From an uncultured Marinococcus sp. (GTDB taxonomy: Bacteria; Bacillota; Bacilli; Bacillales; Marinococcaceae), in assembly GCF_947493875.1 (NCBI RefSeq), contig NZ_CANLSU010000011.1, positions 1 through 52,637 on the forward strand: DNA of 52,637 bases. Direction: 5' to 3'. Positions 29,374 to 52,398 of this stretch are shown piece by piece. A program made the position numbers and the translations under genes. The notes beneath the pieces were generated by a model that did not search any database, was not told where the DNA came from, and saw only the letters and a program-made list of their open reading frames with translations. How positions within the stretch are numbered: the stretch's first letter is position 1; each line of letters starts with the position of its first letter.

Positions 29374-29408
29374 AGCTTGATGTTCCTCCTTAATTATTGA
29401 GAATAAAT

Positions 29409-29464: not shown

Positions 29465-29586
29465 TCTAATAGACGGATGGCAAACTATACAAGTAGTAAG
29501 TCCACGTCATATTAAACAGTTTTATCGTTAAAATGATCATGATAACTTTTTGCACTTACGGGACAGAAAGAGAAAATCTTTCTTGC

Positions 29587-29631
29587 GGTAAGCGTTAACA
29601 TTATATTGAATTACATTTATTTATTTGTCAA
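29587..29631 (-). promoter_or_regulatory. glaH promoter and cre-like box
   Basis: Minus strand: TTGACA (29626-29631) and TATAAT (29600-29605), spacing 20, or CAATAT (29603-29608) at spacing 17. TGTTAACGCTTACC (29587-29600) matches cre at 13 of 14 bases and begins at the -10 end, so CcpA would block initiation. The transcript start would lie about 220 bases before the glaH ATG. Confidence 0.6.
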
Positions 29632-29699
29632 TCTTTTATTCATTCTTTATTTAAAAATTTTTACGACCTCTACTTTTTCGCAATTTTAAAGGTAGATGA

Positions 29700-30005
29700 T
29701 TATAAATTTTTATATTGTTTATATAAATCTTTCAAAGCTGAAATAATAGCATTCTTAGCCTTTCCAAAGTAGTTGTGCTCAATAAGATTGATAGGTTTTT
29801 CGATGCCATTTCGCAAACTATACCCCTTCAAAAGTCGATTAATAAATTCTCTGCCGTGAGCAGTCGCCAATGTACAAGAAGACTCTAAAATTACTCCGTA
29901 TTCACGATCAATTTCTACAGTGACTGTTAGTGTTTGAAACATACTTTGCGCAGCCATTCCTTCTGGTAATCTAGCATGCCCTGCAATAAATACCACATTA
30001 TCCAT
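29700..30005 (-). CDS. DUF3870 family protein
   Basis: The 101-residue protein shows the DUF3870 pattern: an N-terminal VVFIAGHARLPEGMAA, then TVTVEIDREYGVILESSCTLATAHGREFINRLLKGY and a C-terminal helix ending KNAIISALKDLYKQY. The family has no established biochemical role, but members are often near TRAP transporter and 2-hydroxy-acid genes. It has no signal or membrane segment. AAGGGG lies eight bases before the ATG. It is 70 bases upstream of the glaH promoter on the same strand and divergent from the TRAP operon, so it may act in the glutarate pathway or its regulation. Confidence 0.65.
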   Translation of the reverse strand: MDNVVFIAGHARLPEGMAAQSMFQTLTVTVEIDREYGVILESSCTLATAHGREFINRLLKGYSLRNGIEKPINLIEHNYFGKAKNAIISALKDLYKQYKNL

Positions 30006-30354
30006 ATGTAATTCCCCTTTTTTAAATAATCATGATTTGGTATTAACTCTTTAATTTCTCCGTCTTAAAAAAGATTTTTTACAAATTTCTCTGGTTTTAC
30101 GTCGTTAATACTTAAAATGTAAATTTTTAAATTTTTCATTTATCTTGAAAAGACTATAAATTCTTAATTGCTTTGACTTAAAAATTTAAGTTACATTATA
30201 TTCCGATAAATTCTGTTTGATTACTATTTCTCCTTTAATAAAAAGTGTTACTCATAAACGTAATTGATAACACCTCCCTTAGACTATATTCATTGTAGAG
30301 TGATCTCATTTAGCCTTCAATTAAAATCAGATATAAAGTTCTGAAAATTTTGTA

Positions 30355-30401
30355 TTGTAATTGAAAGCGTTAACAACTAAAATTTGTTATACAGTATAAC
30401 A
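30355..30401 (+). promoter_or_regulatory. TRAP operon promoter with cre box and palindromic operator
   Basis: TTGTAA (30355-30360), 17-base spacer, TAAAAT (30378-30383). TGAAAGCGTTAACA (30362-30375) is a perfect cre consensus in the spacer. TGTTATAC-A-GTATAACA (30385-30401) is a perfect palindrome just after the -10, a likely site for the FadR-type regulator at 33406. The rest of 30006-30354 is AT-rich with no gene seen. Confidence 0.7.
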
Positions 30402-30424
30402 TGTTTTTCGGAAAGGGGTTTATT

Positions 30425-31429
30425 ATGAAACGTATTCTTTTTTTATTATTATTTTTGGTACCGGTTTCATTTCTCTTATTAAATGCTTTTTCAGACCAAA
30501 AGTATGAATATTATTCGATCGCTACAGGAACCACAGCGGGAACTTATTATCCTGTGGGTGTAGGGTTAGCAAACTTGTACACAGAGGAATTAGGGGAAAA
30601 TGTTCGAGTGACAGGACAATCATCAGGAGGCTCCGTAGAAAATATTGACTTACTTAGAGAAGGAGAAGCTGAATTTGCCACTATCCAAGGCGTTATTGGG
30701 GACTTTGCTTACCAAGGTAAAGATATATACGCTGATAATACTTACGAAGATTTGCGTGCTGTAACAACATTATGGCCTAACGCAGAACAATTCCCTTTAA
30801 AAAATAGCCAAATTACCACAGGAAATCTAGCTGATATAGAAGGAACAAATTTTTCTTTGGGCTCTCGTGGAAGTGGTACAGAACAAACCACACGTATTAT
30901 TATGAACAGTCTCGGCATGTCTAAAAAAGATATCAATCAAGATTATCTTGGATTTGGAGACACGATTTCCGCAATGAGAGATGGAACTCTACAAGGAGGA
31001 GCTGTTTCTGCCGGTTTACCTACCACTGCTATTACAGATATGTATGCAAGTGGTGTGAACGCGACCTTGCTCGACGTATCCGATGAACAATTACAAAAAA
31101 TCCAATCAAGTTCAGAAGTTTTTTATAGGTATACAATTCCTGCTGAAACTTATCCAAATCAAAGAGAAGAAATACGCACCATAGCTCAAGGCAATTTCAT
31201 GGGCACAGATGCAAACGTAAATAAAGAAACAGTTTATCAAATCACAAAAAACACGTATGAAAATTTAGAACGAGTACATGGAATACACTCTGTTACAAAA
31301 AATATAACGTTAGAAAATTCTTTAGAAGGATTAACAGTTCCCTTACATTCAGGGGCCTACAAATATTACAAAGAGCAAGGTGTAAAAGTGCCAGAAAATT
31401 TAATGCCGCCAAAAGAAAAGAAAGGATGA
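30425..31429 (+). CDS. TAXI-type TRAP transporter substrate-binding protein
   Basis: The 334-residue protein begins with a signal peptide or lipid-free anchor (MKRILFLLLFLVPVSFLLL), then the TAXI-family signature YSIATGTTAGTYYPVGVGLANL (about 30-50). It continues with GQSSGGSVENIDLL and AEFATIQGV. It would capture the substrate outside the membrane and pass it to the fused permease encoded eight bases downstream. In this locus the substrate is most likely glutarate or 2-hydroxyglutarate, inferred from glaH and lhgO. The ATG at 30425 (AAAGGGG ahead) is preferred to one at 30401, which lies inside the operator. Confidence 0.85.
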   Translation: MKRILFLLLFLVPVSFLLLNAFSDQKYEYYSIATGTTAGTYYPVGVGLANLYTEELGENVRVTGQSSGGSVENIDLLREGEAEFATIQGVIGDFAYQGKDIYADNTYEDLRAVTTLWPNAEQFPLKNSQITTGNLADIEGTNFSLGSRGSGTEQTTRIIMNSLGMSKKDINQDYLGFGDTISAMRDGTLQGGAVSAGLPTTAITDMYASGVNATLLDVSDEQLQKIQSSSEVFYRYTIPAETYPNQREEIRTIAQGNFMGTDANVNKETVYQITKNTYENLERVHGIHSVTKNITLENSLEGLTVPLHSGAYKYYKEQGVKVPENLMPPKEKKG

Positions 31430-31437
31430 GTATGTAA

Positions 31438-33405
31438 ATGGCCAACAGCAATACAAATCTAGATTCAAACCAACGTACCGAGAACATACAAACGCCAGAG
31501 AGATATTCTAGCACTTGGAGAAAAATCCTTGTCGTTAGCGTAGCTGTTATATTAGCAGTATTCGCTATCGTATCGAATAGCTTCTTGAATATGCAAGAAA
31601 TTTACAGAAATAGCGTATTTCTCATGCTGTCTTCATTTCTAACATTTCTCTTGTACCCTTCTTCAAAGAAAAACGAGAATAGTCCTTTTTCTATCGTAGA
31701 TATCGTTTTAGCCCTCGGTAGTGCGATTGCTATTGGATATATTTTATATGGTTATTCCAATATCCATATCGATCGCTTGTCCCAGGCAGTTACGATTAAC
31801 TATATTTTTGCCACAATAGCGATCGTCTTCCTCTTAGAAGCCACTCGTCGTGCACTAGGTTGGTTTATTCCAATTTTAATCATATTGGCTATGGTGTATA
31901 GTATTGTCGGTCCTTACTTTTCTGGTGTTTTTGGCCATGCTGGTTTTAGTATCGAAAGGCTATTATATCGCGTATATATGACTACGGAAGGCATATTTGG
32001 CATGACGTTATCGATAGCTGCCACATATATTGTTATTTTTATTATTTTAGGAGCATTTCTTAGTGTGAGTGGAGCTTCAAAATTATTTAATGACCTCGCA
32101 CTAGCTTTTGCTGGAAGATATAGCGGCGGTCCAGCTCAAGTCTCTGTATTAACAAGTGCCTTAACAGGTTCATTGAGCGGCAGCGCCGTGGCTAATGTTG
32201 CCACGACCGGCACATTTACGATTCCTTTAATGAAATCAGTGGGCTTTAGATCACGGTTCGCTGGAGCTGTAGAGGCTACAGCATCTACAGGTGGAATGAT
32301 GATGCCCCCAATCATGGGCGCAGCGGCGTTTATAATGGCAGGATTTCTTGGAGTCCCCTATTCAGTCATTGTGCTAGCCGCAATTATTCCGACCTTTTTG
32401 TACTTCGGAGCCTTAATTCTTGCTATTAACATTGAATCTAGGAAACAAGGATTAAAAGGTATTAGTAAAGAATCAATACCCCAAGTTTTTAAAGTACTCA
32501 AAGAGCGAGGATTATTATTACTTCCCCTGATAATAGTAGTTTACTTTTTACTATCGGGACGGACGCCTTTATTTGCTGGGTTTGTTGGTATCATAAGTAT
32601 CATTATTGTAAGTTGGCTTACATTAGATCCTTCGACACGCATCACACCTAAAAAATTGATTCAAGGTCTTTATGAAGGAGCAAAAGGCACTGTGCAAGTG
32701 ACCATGGCATGTGCATCTATTGGTATTATGATTGCCGTTATATCGATGACAGGCTTAGGAGAAGCTATTAGTACAAATATTTTGGCTATCTCAAGCGGAA
32801 ATTTATTAATAGCTTTATTTTTAGTAATGCTCACCTGTATCGTTTTGAGCCTAGGTCTCCCTTCCACAGCTTTATATATTATTGTGTCTGTCACAGTAGC
32901 TCCTGTACTTATTGACATGGGGATTAATGATGTTGCTGCTCACTTCTTTGTTTTCTGGTTTGGGGTGCTTTCTAGCATTACTCCTCCTGTAGCACTTGCT
33001 TCTTACACCGCTTCAGGCATAGCTAAATCAGATGCCATGCAAACCTCTTGGAGTGCTTTACGTTTAGCACTACCTGGGTTCATCATACCGTTTTTAATTG
33101 CTTTTAACCCAGCCATAGTTATGCAAGGAAGCAATAACAACTTTCTTGATATCATACTAACACTGCTGTTAGCTTCCTCGATCGTATTTGCCCTAACCAT
33201 AGTATTAGCAAAATACTTCTTAAAACCTTTATTATGGTGGGAACAACTACTTTTTGTCTTTCCTATAATATTATTATTATTTACAAATGTATTTACTATC
33301 ATGCTTGGAGTTTTACTCTTGGGAGGTGCTGTAGCCATACAAATTTATCGTTATCATTACCAAGGTCGATCTTACGACACGGCTTTTAAGAAAGGAGACT
33401 ATTAG
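31438..33405 (+). CDS. TRAP transporter permease, fused small and large subunits
   Basis: The 655-residue protein has about four N-terminal membrane spans (DctQ-like) fused to a 12-span DctM-like domain, the 4TM/12TM fusion usual for TAXI systems. Family blocks include SGSAVANVATTGTFTIPLMKS and ASTGGMMMPPIMGAAAFIMA (about 240-300) and LGLPSTALYI. It drives ion-coupled uptake of an organic acid. The stop codon directly abuts the ATG of the next gene. With the binding protein it forms a complete transporter. Confidence 0.9.
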   Translation: MANSNTNLDSNQRTENIQTPERYSSTWRKILVVSVAVILAVFAIVSNSFLNMQEIYRNSVFLMLSSFLTFLLYPSSKKNENSPFSIVDIVLALGSAIAIGYILYGYSNIHIDRLSQAVTINYIFATIAIVFLLEATRRALGWFIPILIILAMVYSIVGPYFSGVFGHAGFSIERLLYRVYMTTEGIFGMTLSIAATYIVIFIILGAFLSVSGASKLFNDLALAFAGRYSGGPAQVSVLTSALTGSLSGSAVANVATTGTFTIPLMKSVGFRSRFAGAVEATASTGGMMMPPIMGAAAFIMAGFLGVPYSVIVLAAIIPTFLYFGALILAINIESRKQGLKGISKESIPQVFKVLKERGLLLLPLIIVVYFLLSGRTPLFAGFVGIISIIIVSWLTLDPSTRITPKKLIQGLYEGAKGTVQVTMACASIGIMIAVISMTGLGEAISTNILAISSGNLLIALFLVMLTCIVLSLGLPSTALYIIVSVTVAPVLIDMGINDVAAHFFVFWFGVLSSITPPVALASYTASGIAKSDAMQTSWSALRLALPGFIIPFLIAFNPAIVMQGSNNNFLDIILTLLLASSIVFALTIVLAKYFLKPLLWWEQLLFVFPIILLLFTNVFTIMLGVLLLGGAVAIQIYRYHYQGRSYDTAFKKGDY

Positions 33406-34119
33406 ATGCCTGAATCTCTCTATCGCAAAAAAGTATCAACTCAAGTTTTAGAATTAATGCAAGAGAAAATCAGAACAGGAGAATATGCTCCTGGCGATAA
33501 ACTCCCTCCCGAAATAACCTTAGCCAAGCAATTTGGAGTTAGTCGCACAGCTATACGCGAAGCTTTAAATATTCTCTCTATTAGTGGCGTAGTGACTTCC
33601 TTACAAGGGGGCGGCCGACAAATCAACGAAGTTAATTTGGTAAACATGTTAGAAGTCATCCCTTATTCTTTGATTGACGTTAGTGAAATTATTGATTTGC
33701 TCGAAATGCGTATGGTGTTTGAAGTAGAAGCTGCTGCCCTAGCCGCTCAACGACATGAAGAAGAGGACGAAATTGAACTTTTGAAAGCGCTCAATCAATT
33801 TAAAGGTACTTTGACAAACAAAGAAAGCATAGGGTTTGAAGCAGATTACCAGTTTCACCTCGTTTTAATCAGAGCAGCTAAAAATGCTTTTTTCGAGCAA
33901 ACATTTATTAATATTAGTACCGTTCTGCAAAACTCTTTACAGTTTTCTTTATCAAAAAACCTCGGAAAGCCTAGAAAAAGAAAAGAGGTATATCATGAAC
34001 ACGAAATGATCTACGAAGCTTTTTGTGCAAGGGATAGTGACACGATCAAAGCAACAATGCAGGCTCATTTAATGAATGTTAAAACTAAATTGGAAGAAAT
34101 TAAATCGATGGGAGATTAA
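33406..34119 (+). CDS. FadR-type GntR regulator of the glutarate locus (CsiR-like)
   Basis: The 237-residue protein has a GntR winged helix (about 10-75; PGDKLPPEITLAKQFGVSRTAIREAL, then VVTSLQGGGRQI) and an FCD ligand domain (about 90-230) with FEADYQFHLVLIRAAKN and YHEHEMIYEAF metal/ligand positions. It starts right at the TRAP permease stop and has AAAGGAG in the end of that gene. E. coli CsiR, also GntR-type, represses the csiD-lhgO operon and responds to glutarate. A palindrome at 30385 is its probable operator. The effector is inferred from context. Confidence 0.85.
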   Translation: MPESLYRKKVSTQVLELMQEKIRTGEYAPGDKLPPEITLAKQFGVSRTAIREALNILSISGVVTSLQGGGRQINEVNLVNMLEVIPYSLIDVSEIIDLLEMRMVFEVEAAALAAQRHEEEDEIELLKALNQFKGTLTNKESIGFEADYQFHLVLIRAAKNAFFEQTFINISTVLQNSLQFSLSKNLGKPRKRKEVYHEHEMIYEAFCARDSDTIKATMQAHLMNVKTKLEEIKSMGD

Positions 34120-34269
34120 TTAAGACAAAGCCTATCACCAATAGAAATAACGAAAAGAATTTTCCCCATCACTTTGTTGTATTTTCAATCGTCTATAACT
34201 GTAGTTTGCAAGCAATAATTAATAAACGTTTTAACTATTAATTCAATCAATAAAGAGGGAGAGAAATCA

Positions 34270-35490
34270 ATGGAAGATTATATTATTATCGGCGGTGGGA
34301 TCGTAGGTTTGTCCGTTGCCTACGAGCTAACAAAGCAGCATCCTCATGCAAACGTCACTGTACTTGAAAAAGAAGAAAAAGTAGCTTTTCATCAAACGGG
34401 TCATAATAGCGGTGTTATTCATTCTGGTATTTATTACACACCTGGAAGTCTAAAAGCTCGTCTAGCGAAACAGGGAAATAAATCCATGCGTCAATTTGCA
34501 GAAAAGCATCAAATACCGATAGACATCTGTGGAAAAGTCATCGTCGCCACAGAAGAAAAGGAATTGCCCCACCTTGAAAATCTTTATCAACGGGGGCTTC
34601 AAAATGAATTGGACATTGAAAAATTAAGCAAATCAGAACTTTTAGAAAAAGAACCTCATGTTCGAGGAATAGCAGGAATTTACGTACCTTCAACTGGCAT
34701 TATTGATTACTCAAAAGTTTCCAATAAGCTTGCTGAACTCATCGAACAACAAAATGGCCAAATTAAATATGGTACTGCCGTAACAGCTATTTCGGAAAAC
34801 ACTGATAGCGTAGAAATTAACACCAACAAAGAAGTCTATAACGGCCGTTACTTAATTAATTGTGCTGGTTTGCAAAGTGATCGGATAGCTGAACTCGCTG
34901 GTTACCACTTGGACCTAAAAATCGTACCTTTTCGGGGGGAATATTATAAATTTGTCGAAGAGAAAAGAGATCTCGTACGTAATTTGATTTACCCTGTCCC
35001 TAATCCCGAATTCCCCTTTTTAGGTGCTCACTTCACTCGTATGATGGATGGTAATGTTGATGCTGGGCCTAACGCCGTTCTTGGTTTCAAGCGAGAAGGA
35101 TATAAAAAGCGGGATATCAACATTAAGGACTTATCTGAAGTCCTTCTTTACAAAGGATTCTGGAAGCTTGCTAAACCTTACTTAAAAGAAGGCATAGGAG
35201 AAATGATCCGTTCCGTAAATAAAAAGAAGTTTGTGCAAAATCTTCAGAAATTAATTCCAGAAGTCCAGGAAGAAGACCTTATAATAGGACCGCGCGGAGT
35301 ACGGGCCCAGGCTTTAACGAAAGATGGGAAAATGGTTGATGATTTTTACATTGTTTCTGGTAAGAAAAGTTTACATGTGTGCAATGCACCATCACCAGCG
35401 GCAACTGCTTCTCTAGAAATCGGTAAGAATATTGTAGAACGTATACATGTTGAAGAAGAACGCAAAGAAAAAGCAAGCGTAAATGTTTAA
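34270..35490 (+). CDS. lhgO: L-2-hydroxyglutarate oxidase/dehydrogenase LhgO
   Basis: The 406-residue flavoprotein has the N-terminal dinucleotide fold IIIGGGIVGLSVAYEL (GxGxxG at 8-13) and the LhgO signature FHQTGHNSGVIHSGIYYTPGSLKA. It continues with PHVRGIAGIYVPSTGIIDY and IIGPRGVRAQ. It oxidises L-2-hydroxyglutarate, the GlaH product, to 2-oxoglutarate with electrons to quinone. GAGGGAGAG precedes the ATG. It is separated from the regulator gene by 150 bases and is followed by an SDR gene. The E. coli partners csiD and lhgO are adjacent; here the transporter and regulator stand between them. Confidence 0.9.
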   Translation: MEDYIIIGGGIVGLSVAYELTKQHPHANVTVLEKEEKVAFHQTGHNSGVIHSGIYYTPGSLKARLAKQGNKSMRQFAEKHQIPIDICGKVIVATEEKELPHLENLYQRGLQNELDIEKLSKSELLEKEPHVRGIAGIYVPSTGIIDYSKVSNKLAELIEQQNGQIKYGTAVTAISENTDSVEINTNKEVYNGRYLINCAGLQSDRIAELAGYHLDLKIVPFRGEYYKFVEEKRDLVRNLIYPVPNPEFPFLGAHFTRMMDGNVDAGPNAVLGFKREGYKKRDINIKDLSEVLLYKGFWKLAKPYLKEGIGEMIRSVNKKKFVQNLQKLIPEVQEEDLIIGPRGVRAQALTKDGKMVDDFYIVSGKKSLHVCNAPSPAATASLEIGKNIVERIHVEEERKEKASVNV

Positions 35491-37417: not shown

Positions 37418-38335
37418 TTAGTCATCAAGGGCCCAATGCCGATCGGCCATGAACGAGACCGTCAGCCATTTTTTGGGTGTTGCGCCGGTCAATACTGCGG
37501 CCAGTTTTTCTCGCATTTCATCTTGTTTTTTTAGGGAATTGAGGGGGCTACTTTCCAGCGCCACAATATCAATTTCCACCCAAAGAGTACGCCCGACCTT
37601 GGTTATCCGCAGAAAGCTTTCTTCGACATTATAGTCGGCAGCCAGCTCCTCTAACGTTTCTTCCATGCGACGGCGTATTCCTTCATGCGAGCTCATCGCC
37701 AAAACCTCCCGAAGGGCTAGGCGCATTTCTTTCAGCGGGAACCGCAAAAAGTATACGGATACGAGCAGTACCATGACTGGATCGACATAAGGAATAAACG
37801 ACGGGAACCACTGAAAAATTTCAAGCATAAAGGCGACGAGAAATCCCACAAACACTCCCATACTGACGAGCGTATCCATGAGCCACTGATTGGATTCCGC
37901 CTTTAATAAGGCCGACTGCGAACGGGAAGCCTGCACGTGTAAATAACGAGCGACAGCTCCACACGCGAGCAATCCGATAAACGAGTAAACAAACGCCGGT
38001 CCTACTTGCATGTCCCGTCCTCCTTGGAACAGGGACACCAGGGCGGCCGCTGCCGAACCCGCGATCAACAGCAGAATAACCATGTACTTGAATAACACCA
38101 CGAGAGGTTCCACGATGTCCAACCCAAAGGGGTATCGTTTCCAGTCGGTCGTCGCCATCCATGTAGCCGCCGCTAGCGAGACACAGGAGAGCGCCACCCC
38201 GACCAGCGAATATAACCCGTCGAATACAATCATTTGCGATTGGACCCATAAGCCTAAGATCATACCGGTGCCTGAAAACAGAACAGTGGCCATGATCGAG
38301 ATCCAAAGTATTTTCTTTTCTTGTTTCATATTCAT
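37418..38335 (-). CDS. cation diffusion facilitator transporter
   Basis: The 305-residue protein has six membrane spans and the CDF pattern: GLWVQSQMIVFDGLYSLVGVALS near residues 28-50 (the Asp of the first metal site) and ALLKAESNQWLMDTLVSMGVF (about 140-160). A soluble C-terminal domain follows, containing VEESFLRITKVGRTLWVEIDI. CDF proteins export divalent metals by proton exchange. The usual HxxxD of span 5 appears here as NxxxD (ESNQWLMD), a change that can alter metal choice. AAGGGGGTG precedes the ATG. It follows a TetR gene by 12 bases and is probably controlled by it. Confidence 0.82.
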   Translation of the reverse strand: MNMKQEKKILWISIMATVLFSGTGMILGLWVQSQMIVFDGLYSLVGVALSCVSLAAATWMATTDWKRYPFGLDIVEPLVVLFKYMVILLLIAGSAAAALVSLFQGGRDMQVGPAFVYSFIGLLACGAVARYLHVQASRSQSALLKAESNQWLMDTLVSMGVFVGFLVAFMLEIFQWFPSFIPYVDPVMVLLVSVYFLRFPLKEMRLALREVLAMSSHEGIRRRMEETLEELAADYNVEESFLRITKVGRTLWVEIDIVALESSPLNSLKKQDEMREKLAAVLTGATPKKWLTVSFMADRHWALDD

Positions 38336-38347
38336 TCGATCACCCCC

Positions 38348-38917
38348 TTATCTTGCGAGAGCTCGTACAAGCATGAGCTTCAGTTCGGCCTTGGCCTGCC
38401 GTTGATCGTTCGTCCCCGATCGGGACAAATAATGGCTTTCTGCGGCGTGCTCGACCAGGCCGATCGTGTTGTTAACCATTAGCTTCAACTCCAGTTCATT
38501 CGTCAGTTGATGGTGCTGTTGTAATTGCACGAATTGCGCTTGCAGCCAATCATAGTAGGGGCGATAAATCGCTTCCCAACGCTCAAAGGAGTAATAGAGC
38601 GACATCCCGCTATAGCACATGCTAATCGAATCCTGAAATTCTTCCGTGATCTGAAACGTTATGGCGATCACGATATCAATGATTTCGGTGAGGGTGCCTG
38701 CATCTCCATGCGCTTTCATGCGAGCCAACTGTTCGTTTAGGATATGAGAAGCAATGGCCGGCACGAGCTCTTTTTTCGATTCGAAATAATTATAAAACGT
38801 CCCCTGAGCTACACCGGCTTCCTTCACTAGGTGGGAGACTGACGTTTGATCGAATCCTTCCCGATGAATGACGGTGATGGCCGCTTTCAATAATTGATCG
38901 TAGGTGGTCTGTTTCAT
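38348..38917 (-). CDS. TetR-family regulator of the CDF transporter
   Basis: The 189-residue protein has an N-terminal TetR helix-turn-helix (about 8-52) with FDQTSVSHLVKEAGVAQGTFYNYFESKKEL. The variable C-terminal ligand domain is not diagnostic. GGAGG lies five bases before the start. A perfect 11-base-arm palindrome is 36 bases upstream, consistent with autorepression. Sharing a transcript with the transporter suggests that it senses the exported metal or a toxic compound. Confidence 0.85.
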   Translation of the reverse strand: MKQTTYDQLLKAAITVIHREGFDQTSVSHLVKEAGVAQGTFYNYFESKKELVPAIASHILNEQLARMKAHGDAGTLTEIIDIVIAITFQITEEFQDSISMCYSGMSLYYSFERWEAIYRPYYDWLQAQFVQLQQHHQLTNELELKLMVNNTIGLVEHAAESHYLSRSGTNDQRQAKAELKLMLVRALAR

Positions 38918-39877: not shown

Positions 39878-40489
39878 TTATCCAGTGATCCACGACCACA
39901 CGACCGCAACGGTGCCTTGCAGGATCAGTACGTAGAATCCCAGACCGATGTAAATGACCGCCATGACCCAGCGGCCCACGTATTCGATTGCGGTCGATAC
40001 ACCGGGTAGACGACTCAATTGCTGGGCACTAAATACTAAAATCAATATCCATACAGCGAAGGTGACCAGCGTGGTCATCAGGGCCGATGCCGAGATGGAA
40101 ACAAAATAAGGCACAAACAAACCAATATTATCGGCCCCGCAGCTAGCAATGACAACGAGGGCAACCGTCGTGGAGAGGTTTGTTCGCTGGTGCTGATGCA
40201 GTTGCTGGTCCCCATCATCCTCATCGCCCATGAGGGCGATTTTGATCCCCAGGTACAACGGAATCAGGCCCAGCAAGCCTAACATCCAGTCCTCCGGGAC
40301 CACGCGTAATACAAAAGCGAAAAACAGACTAACACCGATAAGTACCAACGAGCCCCTGTAGTGCCCGAGATAAATCTGGCCATACTGCTTCTTTGTGGTC
40401 GCCTAACCGAAAAAGAGCAGGAGTAACACCACTAGATCAATTGCCGTGGCTGCATAAAGCACCGAAGCTGTTCCGATAGTCGTTAGCAT
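39878..40489 (-). pseudogene. cadD: CadD cadmium resistance transporter with internal stop
   Basis: The frame from ATG 40489 (AGGAAGAGG ahead) reads a full CadD of about 203 codons: TAIDLVVLLLLFFG, then TAG at codon 29, then TKKQYGQIYLGHYRGSLVLIGVSLFFAFVL and PEDWMLGLLGLIPLYLGIKIALMGDEDD, ending in a last membrane span. CadD is a LysE-like membrane protein giving cadmium tolerance. The stop (40403-40405) replaces what is usually Arg or a similar residue. A 156-residue N-terminally short product could start at 40348, but it would lack the first span. Otherwise the sequence is intact, so the mutation looks recent. Confidence 0.82.
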
Positions 40490-44501: not shown

Positions 44502-45242
44502 TCATTTACGAAAAGAATCAGAAATTTCTGTAGTGGCTTGAATAACAGTGTCTATATATTTATTAATCGATTCTTCATCAAATCGGAAAGCCGGTCCTGA
44601 AACTGAGAGTGCACCAACAATATGCTTTTGGTTATCATAAACTGGTACTGACAATGCGGAAACATTAGAGCTGATTTCACCTACACTGACAGCATAACCC
44701 TTCTTTTGAGTATCATGTATCTTTTCTATTAAAATTTGTTGTTCTTCGAAAGGTAAGTCCTTCATCATTTGCTTTTGACGTTCCTCAGGTTGAAAAGCCA
44801 AAATCGCTCTTCCAGTTGCTCCAGCATAAATTGGTAATTGCTTCCCCACCCCTACAGAACGTCGTATTTCTTGCTGACTTTCATATTCCAACACACATAA
44901 ACGTGTTTGTCCGTTGGGCACATAAAAACCGACAGTTTCGTTAGTAATATTACGTAGTTTCATTAACCAAGGTTCTATAATAGAAGAAAATGGAAATTCT
45001 GTAACCACTTTATTCGCGTAATCCAAAAACACTACTCCAAGAGAATAAAGTTTAGATTGAGGATCCTGAAAAACAAATCCTTCTGTTTTTAACGTGGTCA
45101 ATAAACGATGCACGATTGTAGAAGACATCTCTAGCTCTTCACTAATGTAACGTATACTCTGCGGCCCAGGGTTTTCTTTTAAATGATTCAATAATTTAAG
45201 TGCACGTAGTACCGTGGCTGATGTATCCATTTTTGCTTTCAT
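44502..45242 (-). CDS. IclR-family regulator
   Basis: The 246-residue protein has an N-terminal winged helix (about 8-70; ALKLLNHLKENPGPQSIRYISEELEMSSTIVHRLLTTL) and an IclR effector domain (about 75-245) with LPIYAGATGRAILAF and GYAVSVGEISSNVSALSVPVYD. AGGAGG lies five bases before the start. IclR members usually control nearby catabolic operons. The BCCT-to-aldehyde-dehydrogenase operon lies upstream on the same strand, separated by an IS30 remnant, and is the obvious candidate target. Confidence 0.85.
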   Translation of the reverse strand: MKAKMDTSATVLRALKLLNHLKENPGPQSIRYISEELEMSSTIVHRLLTTLKTEGFVFQDPQSKLYSLGVVFLDYANKVVTEFPFSSIIEPWLMKLRNITNETVGFYVPNGQTRLCVLEYESQQEIRRSVGVGKQLPIYAGATGRAILAFQPEERQKQMMKDLPFEEQQILIEKIHDTQKKGYAVSVGEISSNVSALSVPVYDNQKHIVGALSVSGPAFRFDEESINKYIDTVIQATTEISDSFRK

Positions 45243-45329
45243 TTCAACCTCCTATTTTAATTTATATATATATATTTAAATTTTTATTTTCTTCATATTT
45301 TAAGTTGTAATATTAAGTGCAACATGTAC

Positions 45330-45660
45330 AAAAATAAAAAACACCCCAGGTATTTTTGAGTAAGAGGCATGTACTATCAAATACTCACACGAAGGGGTAC
45401 TAGGAACTACTATCATCTTACCATGATCGAACACCAACAACTAGAGGCTCTAACGAGCCTCCGCTGGTCCATCCGACTGATTGTAGTTTTCCTAGGCAAA
45501 TGTCCATCGACTATTTCCCGTGAACACCGGCGCCAACCGTCTTTCATTACGTATCAGGCATATCAAGCATAGAAATCCTATCACCAGATTGATTTACCAC
45601 AGCCTATGAATTGTTTATATGGGAAGACCACGGAAAGGATGTTTCAAAAAGAAGTATGAC
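45330..45660 (+). mobile_element. IS30-family transposase remnant
   Basis: An ORF from 45369 reads NYYHLTMIEHQQLEAL, then LGKCPSTISREHRRQ, the N-terminal helix-turn-helix of IS30 transposases ('HPSTISRELKRN'). It is stopped at 45572. Further short pieces (SYHQIDLPQPMNCLYGKTTERMF) follow. The DDE domain is gone. It separates the iclR gene from the aldehyde dehydrogenase gene. Confidence 0.65.
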
Positions 45661-45690
45661 TCTTAAAGGGCCAACCCAATATATATTAAA

Positions 45691-45727
45691 ATAGTGTGGA
45701 AGATAAACTATGATCTTTCCACACTAT
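45691..45727 (-). terminator. terminator of the BCCT/aldehyde dehydrogenase operon
   Basis: ATAGTGTGGAAGAT (45691-45704) pairs with ATCTTTCCACACTAT (45713-45727), one bulge, 33 bases past the aldehyde dehydrogenase stop. On the minus strand TTTTAATATATAT follows. Confidence 0.65.
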
Positions 45728-45759
45728 CCCTATTATTAAATTAACCACTGATTTTTACA

Positions 45760-47229
45760 TTAAACACTTTTAATGTAACGTGTTTTATATTGAAGATAAA
45801 AATCTGTCGCTTCACTACCAAGTTCTTTGAAAGTTCCTGTACTGGATTGCTTGTACCCACCGAAAGGTGCTTGAAAGAAAGTACCTGTAGTGGTCATATT
45901 TACTTTTACAATTCCTGCTTCTATTTCATTAAGTGCTTTATTCATATACTCAAGGTTTTTCGTGCAAATTGCTGAAGACAACCCATAATCTACATCATTT
46001 GCCACTGTAATTGCTTCATTGATATCTTGTACTTTAATAATACTGTTTACTGGTCCAAAAATCTCTTCTTTAGCGACTTGCATCCACGGTTTTACTTCAC
46101 TGATGACGGTCGGTTCTACGAAGTACCCTTGTTGGTATTCGTTTCCTTTTGGAGTGTTTCCGCCTATAAGCACCTTAGCCCCTTCATCTTTTGCACTTTG
46201 GATGAGATTAAGCGTAGATTGAAGTTCAGACTGATTTACTTGAGGCCCCATGTCTACGCCTTCTGTTAAGCCATTGCCCACTTTTATCTCTTCAGTCTTT
46301 TTCACAAGTTTCTCCGTAAACTCTTCAGCTATTTTCTCATGGACTATGATTCTACCTGTTGCTGTACATGCTTGACCTGTCTGCCCGTAAGCGCCCGCTA
46401 CAGCCAGCTGAACCGCTTCGTCAATATCTGCATCTTCCATAACTATAAGAGGGTTTTTTCCTCCCATCTCAAGCAAGCAACGTTTCATATCTTTAGCTGC
46501 TTCCGCGTATATTTTTTTACCAACTGCATTAGAGCCCGTAAATGTTACGGCTTTGATAGCACTATGGTTAATCATATCTGGAACAAGTTTTCCTGGCGCA
46601 ATTACGAAATTAACTACACCAGCAGGAACACCGGCGCGATTGACTATATCTATAAATTTCATTGCCGTTAAAGGCGTTTCAGAAGAAGGTTTTAAAATCA
46701 CTGTGTTCCCAGCAGCAATAGCTGGTGCTGTTTTCCAAGCAGGAATGGATAATGGAAAGTTCCAAGGTGTAACTACTAAAACTGGACCAAGTGCTTCAGG
46801 TTTAGTTTCGATTTGGACATTTGGGATATCCGCTTCAACTATCATTCCTTTCATCCGACGACATTCTCCAGCGTAATATTTCACAATTCCTGCAGCATAT
46901 CCAACTTCTTTTAGAGCATCATTGTAGGTCTTCCCCTCTTCTTTAACGATTGCTCTCGCAAGGTCTTCTTTTTCCTCTTCCATTAATTTTGAAATGTTAT
47001 ATAAATATTCTCCGCGTTGAGGAGCAGGCGTCGTGCCCCAAAATTTTGACGCTTTCTCTGCAGAATCTATCGCCTCATTTACATCCTCTATATCTGATTG
47101 ATAAAAGGAAGAAATAACTTCCTGGGTATTAGCAGGGTTTACTCCTTCTTTTAAATCTTTACCAGAAGGCGCAACCCAGTTTCCATTTATAAAATTTTTC
47201 AGTGTTGTTGCAGTTGCAGTAGTTGCCAT
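45760..47229 (-). CDS. NAD(P)-dependent aldehyde dehydrogenase
   Basis: The 489-residue protein has all core ALDH residues: Asn157 in TPWNFPL, Glu254 in LEMGGKNP and nucleophile Cys288 in GQACTAT, plus FTGSNAVGKKI for cofactor binding. Overall it resembles 2,5-dioxovalerate and succinate-semialdehyde dehydrogenases of Bacilli. It would oxidise a semialdehyde made by the preceding enzymes of the operon. Sequence alone does not fix the substrate. It lies 56 bases after the DUF3726 gene, with GGAGAGAG ahead of its start. It could also serve the glutarate locus, but it is 9 kb away. Confidence 0.88.
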   Translation of the reverse strand: MATTATATTLKNFINGNWVAPSGKDLKEGVNPANTQEVISSFYQSDIEDVNEAIDSAEKASKFWGTTPAPQRGEYLYNISKLMEEEKEDLARAIVKEEGKTYNDALKEVGYAAGIVKYYAGECRRMKGMIVEADIPNVQIETKPEALGPVLVVTPWNFPLSIPAWKTAPAIAAGNTVILKPSSETPLTAMKFIDIVNRAGVPAGVVNFVIAPGKLVPDMINHSAIKAVTFTGSNAVGKKIYAEAAKDMKRCLLEMGGKNPLIVMEDADIDEAVQLAVAGAYGQTGQACTATGRIIVHEKIAEEFTEKLVKKTEEIKVGNGLTEGVDMGPQVNQSELQSTLNLIQSAKDEGAKVLIGGNTPKGNEYQQGYFVEPTVISEVKPWMQVAKEEIFGPVNSIIKVQDINEAITVANDVDYGLSSAICTKNLEYMNKALNEIEAGIVKVNMTTTGTFFQAPFGGYKQSSTGTFKELGSEATDFYLQYKTRYIKSV

Positions 47230-47285
47230 AATTTCTCTCTCCTTTGATTAGTTTTATATTAATTTTCATAAAACAACTTTTGTTG

Positions 47286-48086
47286 TTAAGTGTTCTCACC
47301 AGCGCCTCGTCTCCTTGATTGCTCAGAAGACTTGACTAATATCTTACGGCCAATTTGATCTAAATGTTTCCAAATAGCGTTATCGACTTCTGCTCCATTA
47401 TGTGAAGCCTTTTCAAATTCCGCTTTTAATAATGCAGATTCTACAAGTTGAACACTTTCACAATTTTTCTTACGACGTAATTCTTTAACGCATGAATTGA
47501 TTAGTTCTATTTCCATCGCAGAGTAAAGCGAAAACTCTTCACACGATAATGTATTATTATCAAACGGGAACAGATCCTTCGAAAATTTTTGCTGCATAAT
47601 ATTCTCTACTTCTTCTCCTTCAGCTATAAATGGAAAAGGATTTTCCGGGGTTGCTAACATCCATATTGCAGTGTTTCTTGTGCTCCTATAATTGATTAAA
47701 CATCCTTTATTTCTGAAAGCAACGTAATTGGCAGTCTTAGCCAGGGCTTGGGAAGGTACAGTATTTTGTACAGATACTTGAACTATTTGATTTGCATAAT
47801 TTAGACTCAACGCACAGTCTGCTATAGCTTTACCATACACAACAGCACTCCCGTTACTGATATTGCAATATAAAACATTATTACTTTTCTTCGATATTTC
47901 TATGCTATTTAATCCATGTTTTAATATATCATCGGTTTCTTTTTGTAAAATGGAAAGACCTTTGAGTCCAACGATTTCGCTCCATGCTACCGCTTCTGCT
48001 CCATCATCGGCATATCCATAGGGAATACCACAAGCCAAAAACACCTTTTTACAATGAGCGAATAATTCTAGATAGGAAACTCGCAT
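47286..48086 (-). CDS. DUF3726 family protein
   Basis: The 266-residue protein begins VSYLELFAHCKKVFLACGIPYGYADDGAEAVAWSEIVGLKGL, the DUF3726 start in which a helical segment with 'G...G.A.(D/E)AA' is typical. The middle holds TVPSQALAKTANYVAFRNKGC and the end is rich in Arg and Ser. No catalytic motif is known for the family. It overlaps the dipeptidase-like gene upstream by 19 bases, so the two are co-translated, which suggests that they act together in an undescribed catabolic step. Confidence 0.65.
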   Translation of the reverse strand: MRVSYLELFAHCKKVFLACGIPYGYADDGAEAVAWSEIVGLKGLSILQKETDDILKHGLNSIEISKKSNNVLYCNISNGSAVVYGKAIADCALSLNYANQIVQVSVQNTVPSQALAKTANYVAFRNKGCLINYRSTRNTAIWMLATPENPFPFIAEGEEVENIMQQKFSKDLFPFDNNTLSCEEFSLYSAMEIELINSCVKELRRKKNCESVQLVESALLKAEFEKASHNGAEVDNAIWKHLDQIGRKILVKSSEQSRRRGAGENT

Positions 48087-49084
48087 TTCTGCGCCTCCTC
48101 TTCAGCTGTAAAAGCATTTGTGAAGAAACGTAACCAATTCCCTCCCATCACTTTCGATATTTCCTCATCTTTCATTCCATTTTCTTGTAAACCTCTTATA
48201 ATGTTGGGAAAATCAGCTGGAGTTTTAAACCATTCTGGCCATTCAGGCCACTCGGGATCTTCTTGCGAACCAGCTCCATAATCAATTTCGAAAGTCCATC
48301 GTCCCATCCTCATCCAGTTTAAAAACTCCTTGGACATGTTCATGGTTAAATCTGTGCCAATTCCGACATGATCAATTCCCATAAAATCTACTGTTTCCAT
48401 TATCATTTCACAGAACTCATTCAATGTTGTACTTTTTCCATTAATCAAATGAGGATAGGCGCACACTCCAATGACGCCTTTATTCTCTTTCAAAGCTTGA
48501 AGTACTTTTTCAGATTTATTTCTTTTCGTAGGATAAAGCCAATCAGGATTCGCATGAGTAATTGCCACTGGACGATTTGATATCTCAATTGCATCGAGAG
48601 AAGTTTGTTCGCCAACATGCGATAAATCAACCACCATCCCAACTCGGTTCATTTCTTCAACTACCAATTTGCCATAGCGAGAAAGTCCACTATCTATTTT
48701 TTCGTAACAACTACTTCCAACTAAATTTTGATTGTTATAAGTTAGTTGCATCACTTTAACCCCAAGCTGATTAAATACAGAAACAAGAGAAAGATCATCT
48801 TCTAAAGCTGAGGTATTTTGTGTTCCCAGAATCACACCTATCTTTCCTTCTTTTTTGGCTTTCAAAATATCAGAACCTTGAAAGACTTGCATTACCAAGT
48901 CACTATTTGCTTTAAAAAATTGATGCCATGCCCCAACCTTACTGATTGTCTCTCGGGCATTCTCCCACAAACCACAGCAAGCATGAACACAAGTTACACC
49001 ACCCTCTTGAAGCAGATACAAAAAGTCTCGATCCCAATTACTTAGTTCTAATGCATCAATAGTAATTATTTCTTGTTGAGTCAT
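48068..49084 (-). CDS. M19 (renal dipeptidase-like) protein lacking metal ligands
   Basis: The 338-residue protein aligns with membrane dipeptidases (M19): LTYNNQNLVGSSC, GLSRYGKLVVEEMNRVGMVVDLSHVG and PVAITHANP...KRN, retaining H156 and H177. But the N-terminal HxD that binds zinc is absent (TIDALELSNWDRD), and the bridging Glu of the usual 'GxEG' strand is Gln (ILGTQNTSAL, Q89). It probably uses one metal or none and may not be a peptidase. AGAAGGGG precedes its start. It overlaps the unknown gene upstream by 29 bases and the DUF3726 gene downstream by 19 bases. Confidence 0.8.
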   Translation of the reverse strand: MTQQEIITIDALELSNWDRDFLYLLQEGGVTCVHACCGLWENARETISKVGAWHQFFKANSDLVMQVFQGSDILKAKKEGKIGVILGTQNTSALEDDLSLVSVFNQLGVKVMQLTYNNQNLVGSSCYEKIDSGLSRYGKLVVEEMNRVGMVVDLSHVGEQTSLDAIEISNRPVAITHANPDWLYPTKRNKSEKVLQALKENKGVIGVCAYPHLINGKSTTLNEFCEMIMETVDFMGIDHVGIGTDLTMNMSKEFLNWMRMGRWTFEIDYGAGSQEDPEWPEWPEWFKTPADFPNIIRGLQENGMKDEEISKVMGGNWLRFFTNAFTAEEEAQKCEFPI

Positions 49085-50780
49085 AACATGCCCCTTCTTT
49101 AGTAGGTATTTGTGGAAAAACCCAATTATCTGCGAATGGTTCCCCTATTTCTTCTACAAGAGGTGCGCCTTGAAACAAAGTAATACGCACCCAACGATCA
49201 GATTTTGGATTAAAACGTTCCGCTCCAAAAAAAGACAACTTACATCTTAATAAATTAACTGGCGATAATTTTTTGCTTAATAAATTCATTCGAATCTCAC
49301 CATATTCATAACCATTTAAAGATTGGATACGTTTTATAATTCCTTTATATTTTGGATATTTTAAAATAAAAGAAGTAATCATTTGTTCTGAAGAATCATT
49401 TTCTAATGCTTGATGTACTTCCTGTACTTGTTCGGCAATGTTCAAGGGCATCTCAAACTCTTCTCCAGGGTCTTCTCCACGAATTCCTAGGCGTGGCTCT
49501 TCTTTTTCTTCAGACCGATACCAAAAATAATATTTTTCTTCTGGATCAGTAAAATCGTAATCAAAAACCCAAGCATATTGATCATTTATTAGTTGTTTTA
49601 ATTGGTCTACCGTCATTTTTGGATCAATTTGATAGGATTCTTCCGAACCCATATATTGCTCTAGTTCAATAACATGTTCGGCATAAAGTTCTAATAAAAG
49701 TGTATACAGTAATTCTTGTGTTTCTATTGGAACCATTTCAGTTAATTCTTGCCATACATCAAATACTGGTTGGCCTTCTATTTCTCTCGTGCTCATGTAT
49801 TCTACAACGAGACTTTTTAAACGCTTAATATTTTTATCTAGATCTTCTGGATTAACAAAAATTTCTCTATCAATTAATCTTGATTCCTCAAAATAATTAG
49901 AAACACGTTCCAACCACTGAGTTAAAATTACCAAGTCGCTTTGTGAGGGCTGAATGTCTTTGACTCTTGCTATTGCTTTTTCTCGAAAAAAGATCCATTG
50001 ATGAATCAATTTTGGATGTGAAATCAAAAATGGCGCCATCCCCAAGCCAGTAGCATTTCCAGTCCCCATAAAACGCTTAATTTCAGGCCCTAGTTTAATG
50101 GAGTGAGAGTTTTTTTCATGCGCTATATGTTCTACTAAATGGAAACTAAAATGACGTAACATGTAAACAGCAAACATTTGAGCTTGAAAAGGCCCACTAA
50201 AGGGATGATCGTTTTTAATCTTTTCATAAGGCGCTAAACCAAATTTTCCATTTCCATAAACAGCTGTTGTTCGAAGCAAATATCCAACTTCATTTAATGT
50301 TTGTGGATCTGGTTGCTCTTGTTTTGTCAAACATTCAATTACATAATTAAAAACTCTATTGCTTTTATTTGCGCGAGACCAAACAAGGTCAGAAGAATCG
50401 CTCCGTCCAACTTCTTGTTTCGGCAATTCTACTTTTAGTCTCTCTAATTTCTCGCTCGAAATAGTGCCCTCACATAATGCAAAAGTTACGTCCCATTTTT
50501 CTGAAATAACCCGATCGCTTCTTTCTTCCTCATTAATTCTTGTAGAAATAACGATAAAAGAAAACAAATGTTTTGGGGTTTGAACGCTATATATAGCGTA
50601 ACCATAGCCTTCTTCGTTCAAATCAAAGGTAGTACACTCGATTTGCCAATTCTCTCTCATCATATTTCTTAACATCGTACGTAAAAAGCTCAAACTTGTA
50701 AGTCGAAATGCACCAATTCTTTCTTGTGTCATGACTTCAGAAGCGGGACGCAACTTATGCTTTTCACAGCTTATAGTCAT
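49056..50780 (-). CDS. unrecognised 574-residue cytoplasmic protein
   Basis: I do not recognise this family. The protein has no signal peptide or membrane span and is rich in Glu, Lys and aromatic residues. An N-terminal region of strands (about 40-120; WQIECTTFDLNEEGYGYAIYS, HLFSFIVISTRIN) is followed by a mainly helical middle, containing RTTAVYGNGKFGLAPYEKI and GPFQAQMFAVYMLRHFSFHLVEHIAH (about 170-225, with several His). The end reads RWVRITLFQGAPLVEEIGEPF. GAGGTG lies before the start. It lies between the BCCT gene and the M19-like gene, overlapping the latter, so it is probably an enzyme of the same pathway. Confidence 0.75.
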   Translation of the reverse strand: MTISCEKHKLRPASEVMTQERIGAFRLTSLSFLRTMLRNMMRENWQIECTTFDLNEEGYGYAIYSVQTPKHLFSFIVISTRINEEERSDRVISEKWDVTFALCEGTISSEKLERLKVELPKQEVGRSDSSDLVWSRANKSNRVFNYVIECLTKQEQPDPQTLNEVGYLLRTTAVYGNGKFGLAPYEKIKNDHPFSGPFQAQMFAVYMLRHFSFHLVEHIAHEKNSHSIKLGPEIKRFMGTGNATGLGMAPFLISHPKLIHQWIFFREKAIARVKDIQPSQSDLVILTQWLERVSNYFEESRLIDREIFVNPEDLDKNIKRLKSLVVEYMSTREIEGQPVFDVWQELTEMVPIETQELLYTLLLELYAEHVIELEQYMGSEESYQIDPKMTVDQLKQLINDQYAWVFDYDFTDPEEKYYFWYRSEEKEEPRLGIRGEDPGEEFEMPLNIAEQVQEVHQALENDSSEQMITSFILKYPKYKGIIKRIQSLNGYEYGEIRMNLLSKKLSPVNLLRCKLSFFGAERFNPKSDRWVRITLFQGAPLVEEIGEPFADNWVFPQIPTKEGACYDSTRNNYY

Positions 50781-50820
50781 TAACTATTCACCTCACTATT
50801 TAATCATGCTCTTTCATGGG

Positions 50821-52398
50821 TTAAATAATCTTTTTTTCATTATTTTTCCCATTTTTGAGGTCTTCTTCAGATACAGAGAATGACAATCCTTGTTCTCTTG
50901 CTAGCTTTTTACAAACATGTGGGGCAGTCCAAAATGTGGTCAAAAGTAATAAAGAGACTGGGACAGCAGTTACTACTATAAAAGATTGTAAAGAATTAAC
51001 ACCGCCTTCACCAATTGTTAGTAATATAGTTGCTACCGCCCCCATAAGTATTGCCCAAAAAACTCTTATAATCTTAGGCGGGTCTCCACTACCAGTAATA
51101 GCCATAGAAATAGTGAAAGACATTGAATCGGTCGTTGTTAGCACAAAAATAATAGTAGCTAGTAAAAAGAGGAAACCTAATAGTAGCCCAAATGGCAATT
51201 GTTCTGTTATTGCTATCATTGCAGCGGGCGGACCATTACTGTTGAGTGCTTGCGAAATAGAATTAGGTTGGGAAAGCTCTTGAAAAATTCCAGTGCCTCC
51301 TACAACCGTAAACCAAAAAGTTGTAACAATAGGAGCTATTATAGCTACGGCTAATACAATTTCGCGTATAGTTCTTCCTCGAGAAATACGGCTAGTAAAA
51401 ATAGCCATCATAGGTCCATAACCTAAAAACCAGGCAAAAAAGAAAACTGTCCACCCACTCAACCATTCTTCGTTGCTACGGTAAGTATGCATTGTTAGAA
51501 AATTTTGAAGATAAAATCCGAATGATTCTAGATACGAATTAACAATAAACAACCAGGGGCCTAATATCAGCATGGCTATAACGAGACCTATGGCTAGAAT
51601 AGTATTGTAACTGCTTAAGATTTGAATGCCTTTATGAATCCCCGTCACTGCAGAGATAGCCGCCACAATAACTAAAAAGATAATAATCAGAGAATGGGTT
51701 AATAAAGTATTAGGAAATCCTAATAAAGCGTTCAATCCGTAACCGGCTTGCAAGCCAAGAAATCCGATGGGACCTATGGTTCCTGCAGCTACCGCTATTA
51801 TAGAAAAAGAATCTACAAACGTGCCTAATATGCTTTTTTTTATAACTTTGTCGCCAAAGATTGGATACAATAGAGATCTTGGTTTAAGGGGAGCGCCACG
51901 ATGATAATGAGCATACATTAAAACGAAAGTGCTCAAAGTGCCTAAAATAGCCCAAGCCAGAAATCCCCAATCAACAAAACTCGTTGCCAATGCCGGCGTT
52001 ACCGTTTCTTGGGCCTTCGACGGCACCCCTTCAAAATGCGGAGGAACATTTAAATAGTGACTCAAAGGCTCAGCCGCCGCCCAAAAAACCCCGCCACCAG
52101 CAAGCAAAGTACACATAATAATCGAAATCCACTTAAAGTTGCCTATTTCTGGCTTTTCCATATTCCCTAATTTTATTTTTCCATATTTAGAAAAACCTAA
52201 ATATAAAGCAATAATAAACGTTCCAAGCATAAGGAATTGATAAAAAGAACCAAAATATTTTACAGAAAAATTGAATGAAGCGCTTACAATTTTAGTTACA
52301 AAGTTTTGGTCAATAATCCCTGCCAATACAAATAAAATCAAAGCCCCTCCACTTATGATGAAAACAGGTAAATCAACAGTTTTTTTCTCATTTTCCAA
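50821..52398 (-). CDS. BCCT-family transporter
   Basis: The 525-residue protein has 12 membrane spans in BCCT order, with FWAAAEPLSHYLNVPP (TM4 region) and GWTVFFFAWFLGYGPMMAIF followed by SRISRGRTIRE (TM8 and after). BCCT carriers import betaine, carnitine, choline or related quaternary amines with sodium or protons, or by exchange. Several tryptophans of the usual TM8 box are Phe, Leu or Tyr here, so the substrate may differ. A TTG at 52398 is taken as start because AAGGAGG lies seven bases ahead; the ATG at 52422 has none. It is the first gene of a minus-strand operon. Confidence 0.88.
   Translation of the reverse strand: MENEKKTVDLPVFIISGGALILFVLAGIIDQNFVTKIVSASFNFSVKYFGSFYQFLMLGTFIIALYLGFSKYGKIKLGNMEKPEIGNFKWISIIMCTLLAGGGVFWAAAEPLSHYLNVPPHFEGVPSKAQETVTPALATSFVDWGFLAWAILGTLSTFVLMYAHYHRGAPLKPRSLLYPIFGDKVIKKSILGTFVDSFSIIAVAAGTIGPIGFLGLQAGYGLNALLGFPNTLLTHSLIIIFLVIVAAISAVTGIHKGIQILSSYNTILAIGLVIAMLILGPWLFIVNSYLESFGFYLQNFLTMHTYRSNEEWLSGWTVFFFAWFLGYGPMMAIFTSRISRGRTIREIVLAVAIIAPIVTTFWFTVVGGTGIFQELSQPNSISQALNSNGPPAAMIAITEQLPFGLLLGFLFLLATIIFVLTTTDSMSFTISMAITGSGDPPKIIRVFWAILMGAVATILLTIGEGGVNSLQSFIVVTAVPVSLLLLTTFWTAPHVCKKLAREQGLSFSVSEEDLKNGKNNEKKII

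Follow-up and report, generated by a model that had tools for sequence, protein, structure and literature searches.

The stretch analysed here (the window) is the whole of contig NZ_CANLSU010000011.1 of an uncultured Marinococcus sp., 52,637 nucleotides in length. Its minus strand carries an operon encoding a BCCT transporter, a 574-residue protein named here U574, an M19-like amidohydrolase, a DUF3726 protein and an aldehyde dehydrogenase (ALDH), with an IclR gene beyond. With slightly less than even confidence, this operon can be read as the form that a catabolic operon for homarine (N-methylpicolinate) takes in Bacillota, in which the ring would be cleaved toward 2-oxoglutarate or N-methylglutamate. 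This reading draws on the gene set, its co-occurrence in other genomes, a gene fusion, the predicted folds and a division of the operons between those with an Ldh gene and those with a RidA gene, from which we infer homarine as the substrate, the intermediates, the reaction of each enzyme and the regulation. The features of the operon are as follows.

50821..52398, minus strand: secondary transporter of the BCCT family for betaine-type uptake; the operon begins with this gene (Pfam PF02028, 2.2e-149)
49056..50780, minus strand: U574, 574 aa, predicted core enzyme; family without Pfam, NCBIfam or PDB match
48068..49084, minus strand: M19-like amidohydrolase with an altered metal site (PF01244, 1.5e-77; PDB 2i5g, 7.1e-67)
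47286..48086, minus strand: DUF3726 protein with a predicted Ldh_2-like fold (PF12525, 6.7e-8)
45760..47229, minus strand: aldehyde dehydrogenase, ALDH (PF00171, 5.6e-164)
about 45730-45690, minus strand: terminator-like hairpin 3′ of ALDH (RNA folding)
44502..45242, minus strand: IclR-family regulator (PF01614 and PF09339)

Pfam assigns five of the six proteins (IclR, ALDH, DUF3726, M19 and BCCT) and leaves U574 unassigned. All six minus-strand reading frames are open and equal their relatives in length, in agreement with a first-pass annotation of the window, which described an untruncated minus-strand gene set with an IclR gene beyond it. The overlaps of 19-29 bases listed there are also present: U574 and M19 share 29 bases (49056-49084), and M19 and DUF3726 share 19 (48068-48086), the latter overlap being seen again at loci L016, L018, L171 and L173. 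BCCT and U574 are spaced by 40 bases, DUF3726 and ALDH by 56. The operon edge placed earlier at 52398 fits as the BCCT start, a TTG preceded by AAGGAGG; translation probably begins there and not at the alternative TTG 52422, judging from the sequence. The contig ends at 52637, so the sequence 5′ of the operon is readable only to that point. Downstream of ALDH, 91 bases fold into a hairpin (-22.3 kcal/mol, z -4.1; none of 200 shuffles is equally stable); the sequence just past it is rich in A+U and includes a short run of U. This bears out the terminator that had been called after the genes, though a simple terminator pattern scan did not have this hairpin among its hits; the pattern scans gave no clear excess of terminators (8 vs 5.1 expected) or promoters (21 vs 26.9 expected). 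The IclR protein is the probable local regulator of the operon. Its gene lies 517 bases past ALDH; at the 12 other Bacillota loci it directly follows ALDH, the gap being about 10-180 bases. The gap in the window (45243-45759) may contain inserted or decayed sequence.

Conservation of the set in other genomes, suggested in the first-pass annotation as a check on the operon, is confirmed; the refuting outcome named there, genes that are not found together elsewhere, clearly did not occur. A search of GTDB contigs yielded at least 579 stretches with a confirmed U574 relative, the best 80 of which were kept for locus analysis. Together with 12 earlier loci they make up 92, some of them clipped by contig ends; at a low threshold that counts paralogues, DUF3726 is found in 86 of the 92, M19 in 84, ALDH in 71, LysR in 62, BCCT in 61, RidA in 47 and Ldh in 16. 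Fifty-eight of the 80 GTDB loci have at least 5 kb before and at least 3 kb after U574. With stricter ALDH and BCCT thresholds, DUF3726 is present in all 58, M19 in 55, ALDH in 49, BCCT in 45 and all four in 45. U574, M19, DUF3726, ALDH and IclR occur together in 13/13 Bacillota loci (the window, L016-L020 and L171-L177), where the Bacillota label of the window and of the loci taken from genomes of its class rests on their nearest named U574 relatives being Bacillota. BCCT is found in ten of these loci (it is missing from L016, L020 and L177) and a RidA-family gene in eight (L017-L019, L172-L176); L171 has the same gene order as the window and a BCCT 75% identical. BCCT relatives are 42-63% identical in many U574 loci and only 28-30% identical in certain loci. 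Proteobacterial operons usually possess a LysR gene, as the 62 loci with LysR relatives illustrate.

Among 398 genomes of the window's class, U574 is found in seven and DUF3726 in the identical seven, which span four genera, four of the genomes belonging to one genus. U574 is present in two of 150 relatives, the window's own genome among the two, in 30 of the 31 genomes of the genus Ruegeria and in 168 plasmid records, chiefly of rhizobia and roseobacters. Marine or halophilic genera, judged by genus name, are frequent among the named carriers listed. A quick tree built from 89 U574 proteins places the seven Bacillota rows together on one side of a branch with support 96. An M19 match occurs once in the 3.27 Mb genome, and a chance neighbourhood is therefore unlikely. 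One Ruegeria genome, G150, has two divergent U574 genes (contigs C4 and C8; loci L154 and L051), 39% and 42% identical to that of the window. Distant relatives of U574 (28-31% identity) were encountered in Sinorhizobium meliloti (L009), Mesorhizobium ciceri (L013) and Neorhizobium (L014); IclR, a DUF3726-like gene and M19 adjoin U574 in S. meliloti and Neorhizobium, and ALDH and ABC transporter genes surround it in M. ciceri. These distant relatives may serve another substrate.

The U574 family has no Pfam or NCBIfam model, and comparison with PDB sequences, using both the single sequence and a profile of 55, gave nothing credible. Structure prediction, recommended earlier for this protein, was successful in part: the AlphaFold2 model built from 55 sequences is confident (mean pLDDT 90.1, pTM 0.91), but a Foldseek search of PDB found no significant solved match (0 chains at E<=0.001; best E 0.05, probability 0.12). 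U574 may have a predicted fold without a solved counterpart; a missing match is no proof of a new fold. The DUF3726 model (pLDDT 92.2) looks like an Ldh_2-like fold. All 27 PDB matches at E<=0.001 are Ldh_2-type dehydrogenases (rmsd 7-11 Å), including delta1-piperideine-2-carboxylate reductase (1wtj, 2cwf, 2cwh), which rules out a separate fold of its own for DUF3726. A profile search of PDB agrees with Ldh_2 (1z2i, 4.7e-5); the Pfam Ldh_2 score, 13.7 bits, is under the cut-off of 38.8. The SHG histidine of Ldh_2 proteins, presumably catalytic, corresponds to Val in the window protein, and no His is invariant among 53 DUF3726 members.

In 68 of the 80 loci, DUF3726 starts no more than 150 bases from the U574 stop; as to the remaining loci, M19 lies between the two genes in five from Bacillota, and the longest frame runs back into U574 in seven. 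In a Mesorhizobium plasmid, the two are fused into a protein of 814 residues (L012:9947-12391), residues 596-813 of which match DUF3726. Because of the adjacency in most loci and this fusion, U574 and DUF3726 are taken to constitute, probably, one enzyme complex.

The M19-like protein was described earlier as having a damaged active site. This description is incorrect, because the same changes are found in its subfamily and in PDB 2i5g, its closest solved relative (7.1e-67, about 318 residues). The protein scores 261 bits with PF01244 (cut-off 26). An alignment of 32 members, of which L078 is without its N-terminal part, shows substitutions at HxD and at the metal-bridging Glu; H156, H177 and D245 are invariant. 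The complete binuclear zinc site (HxD, Glu, two His), whose ligand roles we assume to be those of renal dipeptidase, is present in neither the window protein nor the subfamily. A pseudo-enzyme is ruled out by the occurrence of the changes throughout the subfamily and in 2i5g; as far as sequence conservation tells, the protein is a re-tuned amidohydrolase, not a broken one.

The clues to the substrate come from ALDH, BCCT and genes adjoining related operons. The best NCBIfam models for ALDH, 2,5-dioxovalerate and alpha-ketoglutaric semialdehyde dehydrogenase, represent dehydrogenases of C5 2-oxo-semialdehydes, though neither cut-off is reached (NF052305, 564 bits vs 750; NF042993, 541 vs 770). 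BCCT carriers import betaine-like solutes; the window protein satisfies the general Pfam model and scores 331 bits with the glycine betaine BCCT model NF047988, under its cut-off of 650. In Ruegeria TM1040, an extra Ldh gene comes after DUF3726, and the nearest PDB relative of its product is delta1-piperideine-2-carboxylate reductase (184 bits vs 136 for the next). This reductase also works as an N-methyl-amino-acid dehydrogenase. Genes for a four-subunit oxidase of the sarcosine oxidase type and an AraC regulator adjoin the operon in Ruegeria TM1040, Aliiroseovarius and Phaeobacter; at L011, the oxidase subunits other than beta are visible, the beta gene being beyond the stretch. According to PMC13390433, the AraC-type gene tmaR adjoins mgdABCD in R. 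pomeroyi, and Mgd participates in homarine catabolism; homarine itself is described, in PMC12817926, as a marine diatom solute rapidly drawn down by Ruegeria pomeroyi. Taken together, the betaine-type BCCT, the TM1040 Ldh, the adjoining oxidase and AraC genes and the C5-type ALDH favour homarine, and the substrate is most likely this six-membered N-methyl 2-carboxylate ring. The comparative evidence favours the earlier suggestion of uptake and degradation of a betaine-like compound by unfamiliar enzymology; homarine, the likeliest substrate, was absent from its list.

The proposed route is modelled on the logic of trigonelline breakdown, and every operon gene is given a role. Homarine would be imported by BCCT, and U574 with DUF3726 would open the pyridinium ring at C5-C6, giving 2-(N-methylformamido)-5-oxopent-2-enoate. 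ALDH would then oxidise the C5 aldehyde. The M19-like enzyme, whose family also contains dehydropeptidase, would strip the N-formyl group from the enamide to leave 2-(methylimino)glutarate. This methylated imine would be the common substrate of Ldh and RidA. In operons of the RidA type, its hydrolysis would yield 2-oxoglutarate and methylamine; in those of the Ldh type, known from other bacteria, the Ldh_2 reductase would convert it into N-methylglutamate, for N-methylglutamate dehydrogenase. For the window operon, this last step would depend on an enzyme encoded elsewhere in the genome; the RidA relative of contig 3 is one candidate.

The two types of operon were compared in 103 loci, comprising the 12 earlier ones, the 80 from GTDB, four from Ruegeria and seven Bacillota stretches. 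One genome is counted twice there (L003 = L177, both without Ldh and RidA), as is G150, on account of its two U574 genes. Within 8 kb of U574, Ldh is found in 20 loci, RidA in 54, both in none and neither in 29; in the wide-flank subset (76 loci), the corresponding numbers are 14, 46, 0 and 16. The 'neither' class is an upper bound, as the RidA search employed two RidA subfamilies as queries and missed the RidA annotated in L014. A strong match to the oxidase beta subunit within 13 kb occurs at six loci, five of the Ldh type, none of the RidA type and one with neither gene. It is possible, if on balance rather doubtful, that U574 and DUF3726 form a new class of pyridinium-ring-opening enzyme, with a catalytic subunit of an unseen fold and a repurposed Ldh_2-fold subunit that maybe brings reductant, and that the operon exists in two chemical versions, Ldh reduction to N-methylglutamate versus RidA hydrolysis to 2-oxoglutarate and methylamine.

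A number of observations weigh against the homarine route. U574 has no cofactor signature; ring cleavage by it is a guess, and so is its use of oxygen. Ldh and RidA genes are both missing from the window operon. In the genome as a whole, there is no match to Ldh_2, the closest RidA relative (41% identity) is encoded on a different contig, contig 3, and no N-methylglutamate dehydrogenase was identified. Much of the Ldh/RidA split may reflect kinship, because three changes on the U574 tree suffice for it, two of them forced by well-supported branches. Four of the 20 Ldh genes are just 35-38% identical to the TM1040 Ldh, and weaker, sub-threshold oxidase matches occur in L004, of the RidA type, and in L092. 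The neighbouring oxidase may be an ordinary sarcosine oxidase: its large subunits both exceed the NCBIfam cut-offs for sarcosine oxidase (both small ones fall short), and the alpha subunit scores 677 bits against the solved sarcosine oxidase, the other tested Ruegeria copy scoring 719. The best NCBIfam model for the neighbouring AraC protein is the choline regulator GbdR, under the cut-off. At four further Ruegeria operons, the oxidase adjoins only one (L153) and the AraC gene two (L153 and L156), and in the Ruegeria genomes G150 and G171 the AraC-oxidase pair is situated away from U574; in view of this result, confidence in homarine was lowered from marginally above even, and two of the rival explanations were slightly raised. 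In a plasmid collection including the Ruegeria pomeroyi megaplasmid, the TM1040 record is the only one of Ruegeria with a U574 match, so the operon was not seen in R. pomeroyi.

The strongest rival, unlikely but to be taken seriously, keeps the operon and the order of its enzymes and assumes that the substrate is a different N-heterocycle or betaine (pipecolate betaine, N-methylpipecolate or a further methylated pyridine carboxylate, for example), with other intermediates. The relative of Ldh uses a reduced picolinate ring, which would agree with partly saturated rings as well, and the distant U574 relatives of M. ciceri and Neorhizobium, with their ABC transporters and other neighbours, suggest that the family may have several substrates. 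A saturated six-membered ring, however, is expected to give products of the 2-aminoadipate type, whereas ALDH is nearest to dehydrogenases of C5 semialdehydes; furthermore, certain operons adjoin an oxidase that may be an N-methylglutamate enzyme. A second rival, clearly improbable, sees in U574 and DUF3726 not ring-opening proteins but a complex with an assembly, carrier or regulatory function, grouped around the M19-like enzyme and ALDH. U574 without a solved-fold match and DUF3726 without an invariant His would suit such a role, but the 72 invariant columns in the alignment of 55 U574 sequences (10 Arg, 6 Trp and 5 Glu among them) are expected of a binding or active site, and the core set holds no other obvious ring-opening enzyme. 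Degradation of glycine betaine, carnitine, proline betaine, trigonelline or ectoine by a known route is the least probable, despite the presence of BCCT and ALDH genes, the similarity of the TM1040 AraC neighbour to GbdR and the position of the predicted dipeptidase gene pepD before dgcAB in glycine betaine clusters (PMC12093977), as Pfam and NCBIfam reveal no Rieske demethylase, carnitine dehydrogenase, flavin monooxygenase or ectoine hydrolase among the six proteins, and U574 and DUF3726 would be left without a role.

Other genes of the window include one for a CsiD-family protein (28441-29436, minus strand), the family being, as we assume, that of glutarate hydroxylase, and one for L-2-hydroxyglutarate oxidase (34270-35490, plus strand); the interval holds genes for a TAXI TRAP transporter (30401-33405) and for a GntR regulator (33406-34119). 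The region 28441-35490 is likely to serve glutarate utilisation. The flavoprotein at 34270-35490 was considered as an N-methylglutamate oxidase and rejected, for it passes the NCBIfam cut-off for L-2-hydroxyglutarate oxidase instead. The gene for a cadmium-resistance transporter of the Cad family lies close to those for a TetR regulator and a cation efflux protein (39878-40348 and 37418-38917, both on the minus strand). At locus L097 (genome G000, contig 14), a D-amino-acid-oxidase-like flavoprotein adjoins a gene with a proline-racemase-like start, recognised by eye; the pair is perhaps involved in hydroxyproline catabolism.

If the homarine reading is correct, two families of unknown function, U574 and DUF3726, become tied to homarine breakdown, the trait extends to Bacillota, an enzyme with a possibly new fold is added to those cleaving aromatic N-rings, and gene content alone predicts the form in which nitrogen leaves, methylamine or N-methylglutamate. 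A conserved homarine catabolic pathway was reportedly published by Ferrer-Gonzalez et al. in Nat Microbiol in 2026 (doi 10.1038/s41564-026-02313-7); a set of five enzyme genes and a regulator gene would suit its reported name, homABCDER. Given this publication, it is doubtful that the operon is 'undescribed', as first annotated; it probably belongs to a kind already in print, and we infer its membership in the published pathway. A search of one literature library found no publication naming DUF3726, and none on homarine catabolic genes by title or abstract start; in passages from PMC13390433, PMC9038784, PMC12817926 and PMC12093977, homarine catabolism is spoken of only in the first, which cites the 2026 pathway. 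Four points are put forward as new, though any of these may be in the 2026 work: the Bacillota version, U574 without a solved fold, the resemblance of DUF3726 to Ldh_2 in fold, and the division of the operons into Ldh and RidA types.

Among known systems, the proposed route resembles in its logic trigonelline breakdown by the tgn genes of Acinetobacter baylyi, where the pyridinium ring is cleaved to an N-formyl enamide aldehyde, followed by ALDH and amide hydrolysis. The tgn pathway, however, uses a two-component flavin monooxygenase, and no flavin monooxygenase domain is present among the six operon proteins (the rest of the genome was not searched); the position of the carboxylate and the products would also differ. 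Delta1-piperideine-2-carboxylate reductase, a member of the Ldh_2 family acting on the reduced picolinate skeleton, is both among the fold matches of DUF3726 and the nearest PDB relative of the extra Ldh of TM1040, but DUF3726 is shorter, has Val for the SHG His, and the window lacks the extra Ldh. PDB 2i5g shares the altered N-terminal and Glu positions of the M19-like protein, but its setting, the dgc region of P. aeruginosa (it is, we believe, PA5396), would be that of a glycine betaine cluster. PMC12093977 puts a pepD gene in such a place. The window operon has IclR in place of LysR, is without Ldh, RidA and an adjacent oxidase, and has no Mgd-like genes beside it. The oxidase and AraC pair beside the TM1040, Aliiroseovarius and Phaeobacter operons, all three on roseobacter plasmids, is similar in arrangement to mgdABCD and tmaR as described in PMC13390433, the oxidase genes being Mgd-like or sarcosine-oxidase-like; Mgd is, according to the same source, involved in homarine catabolism.

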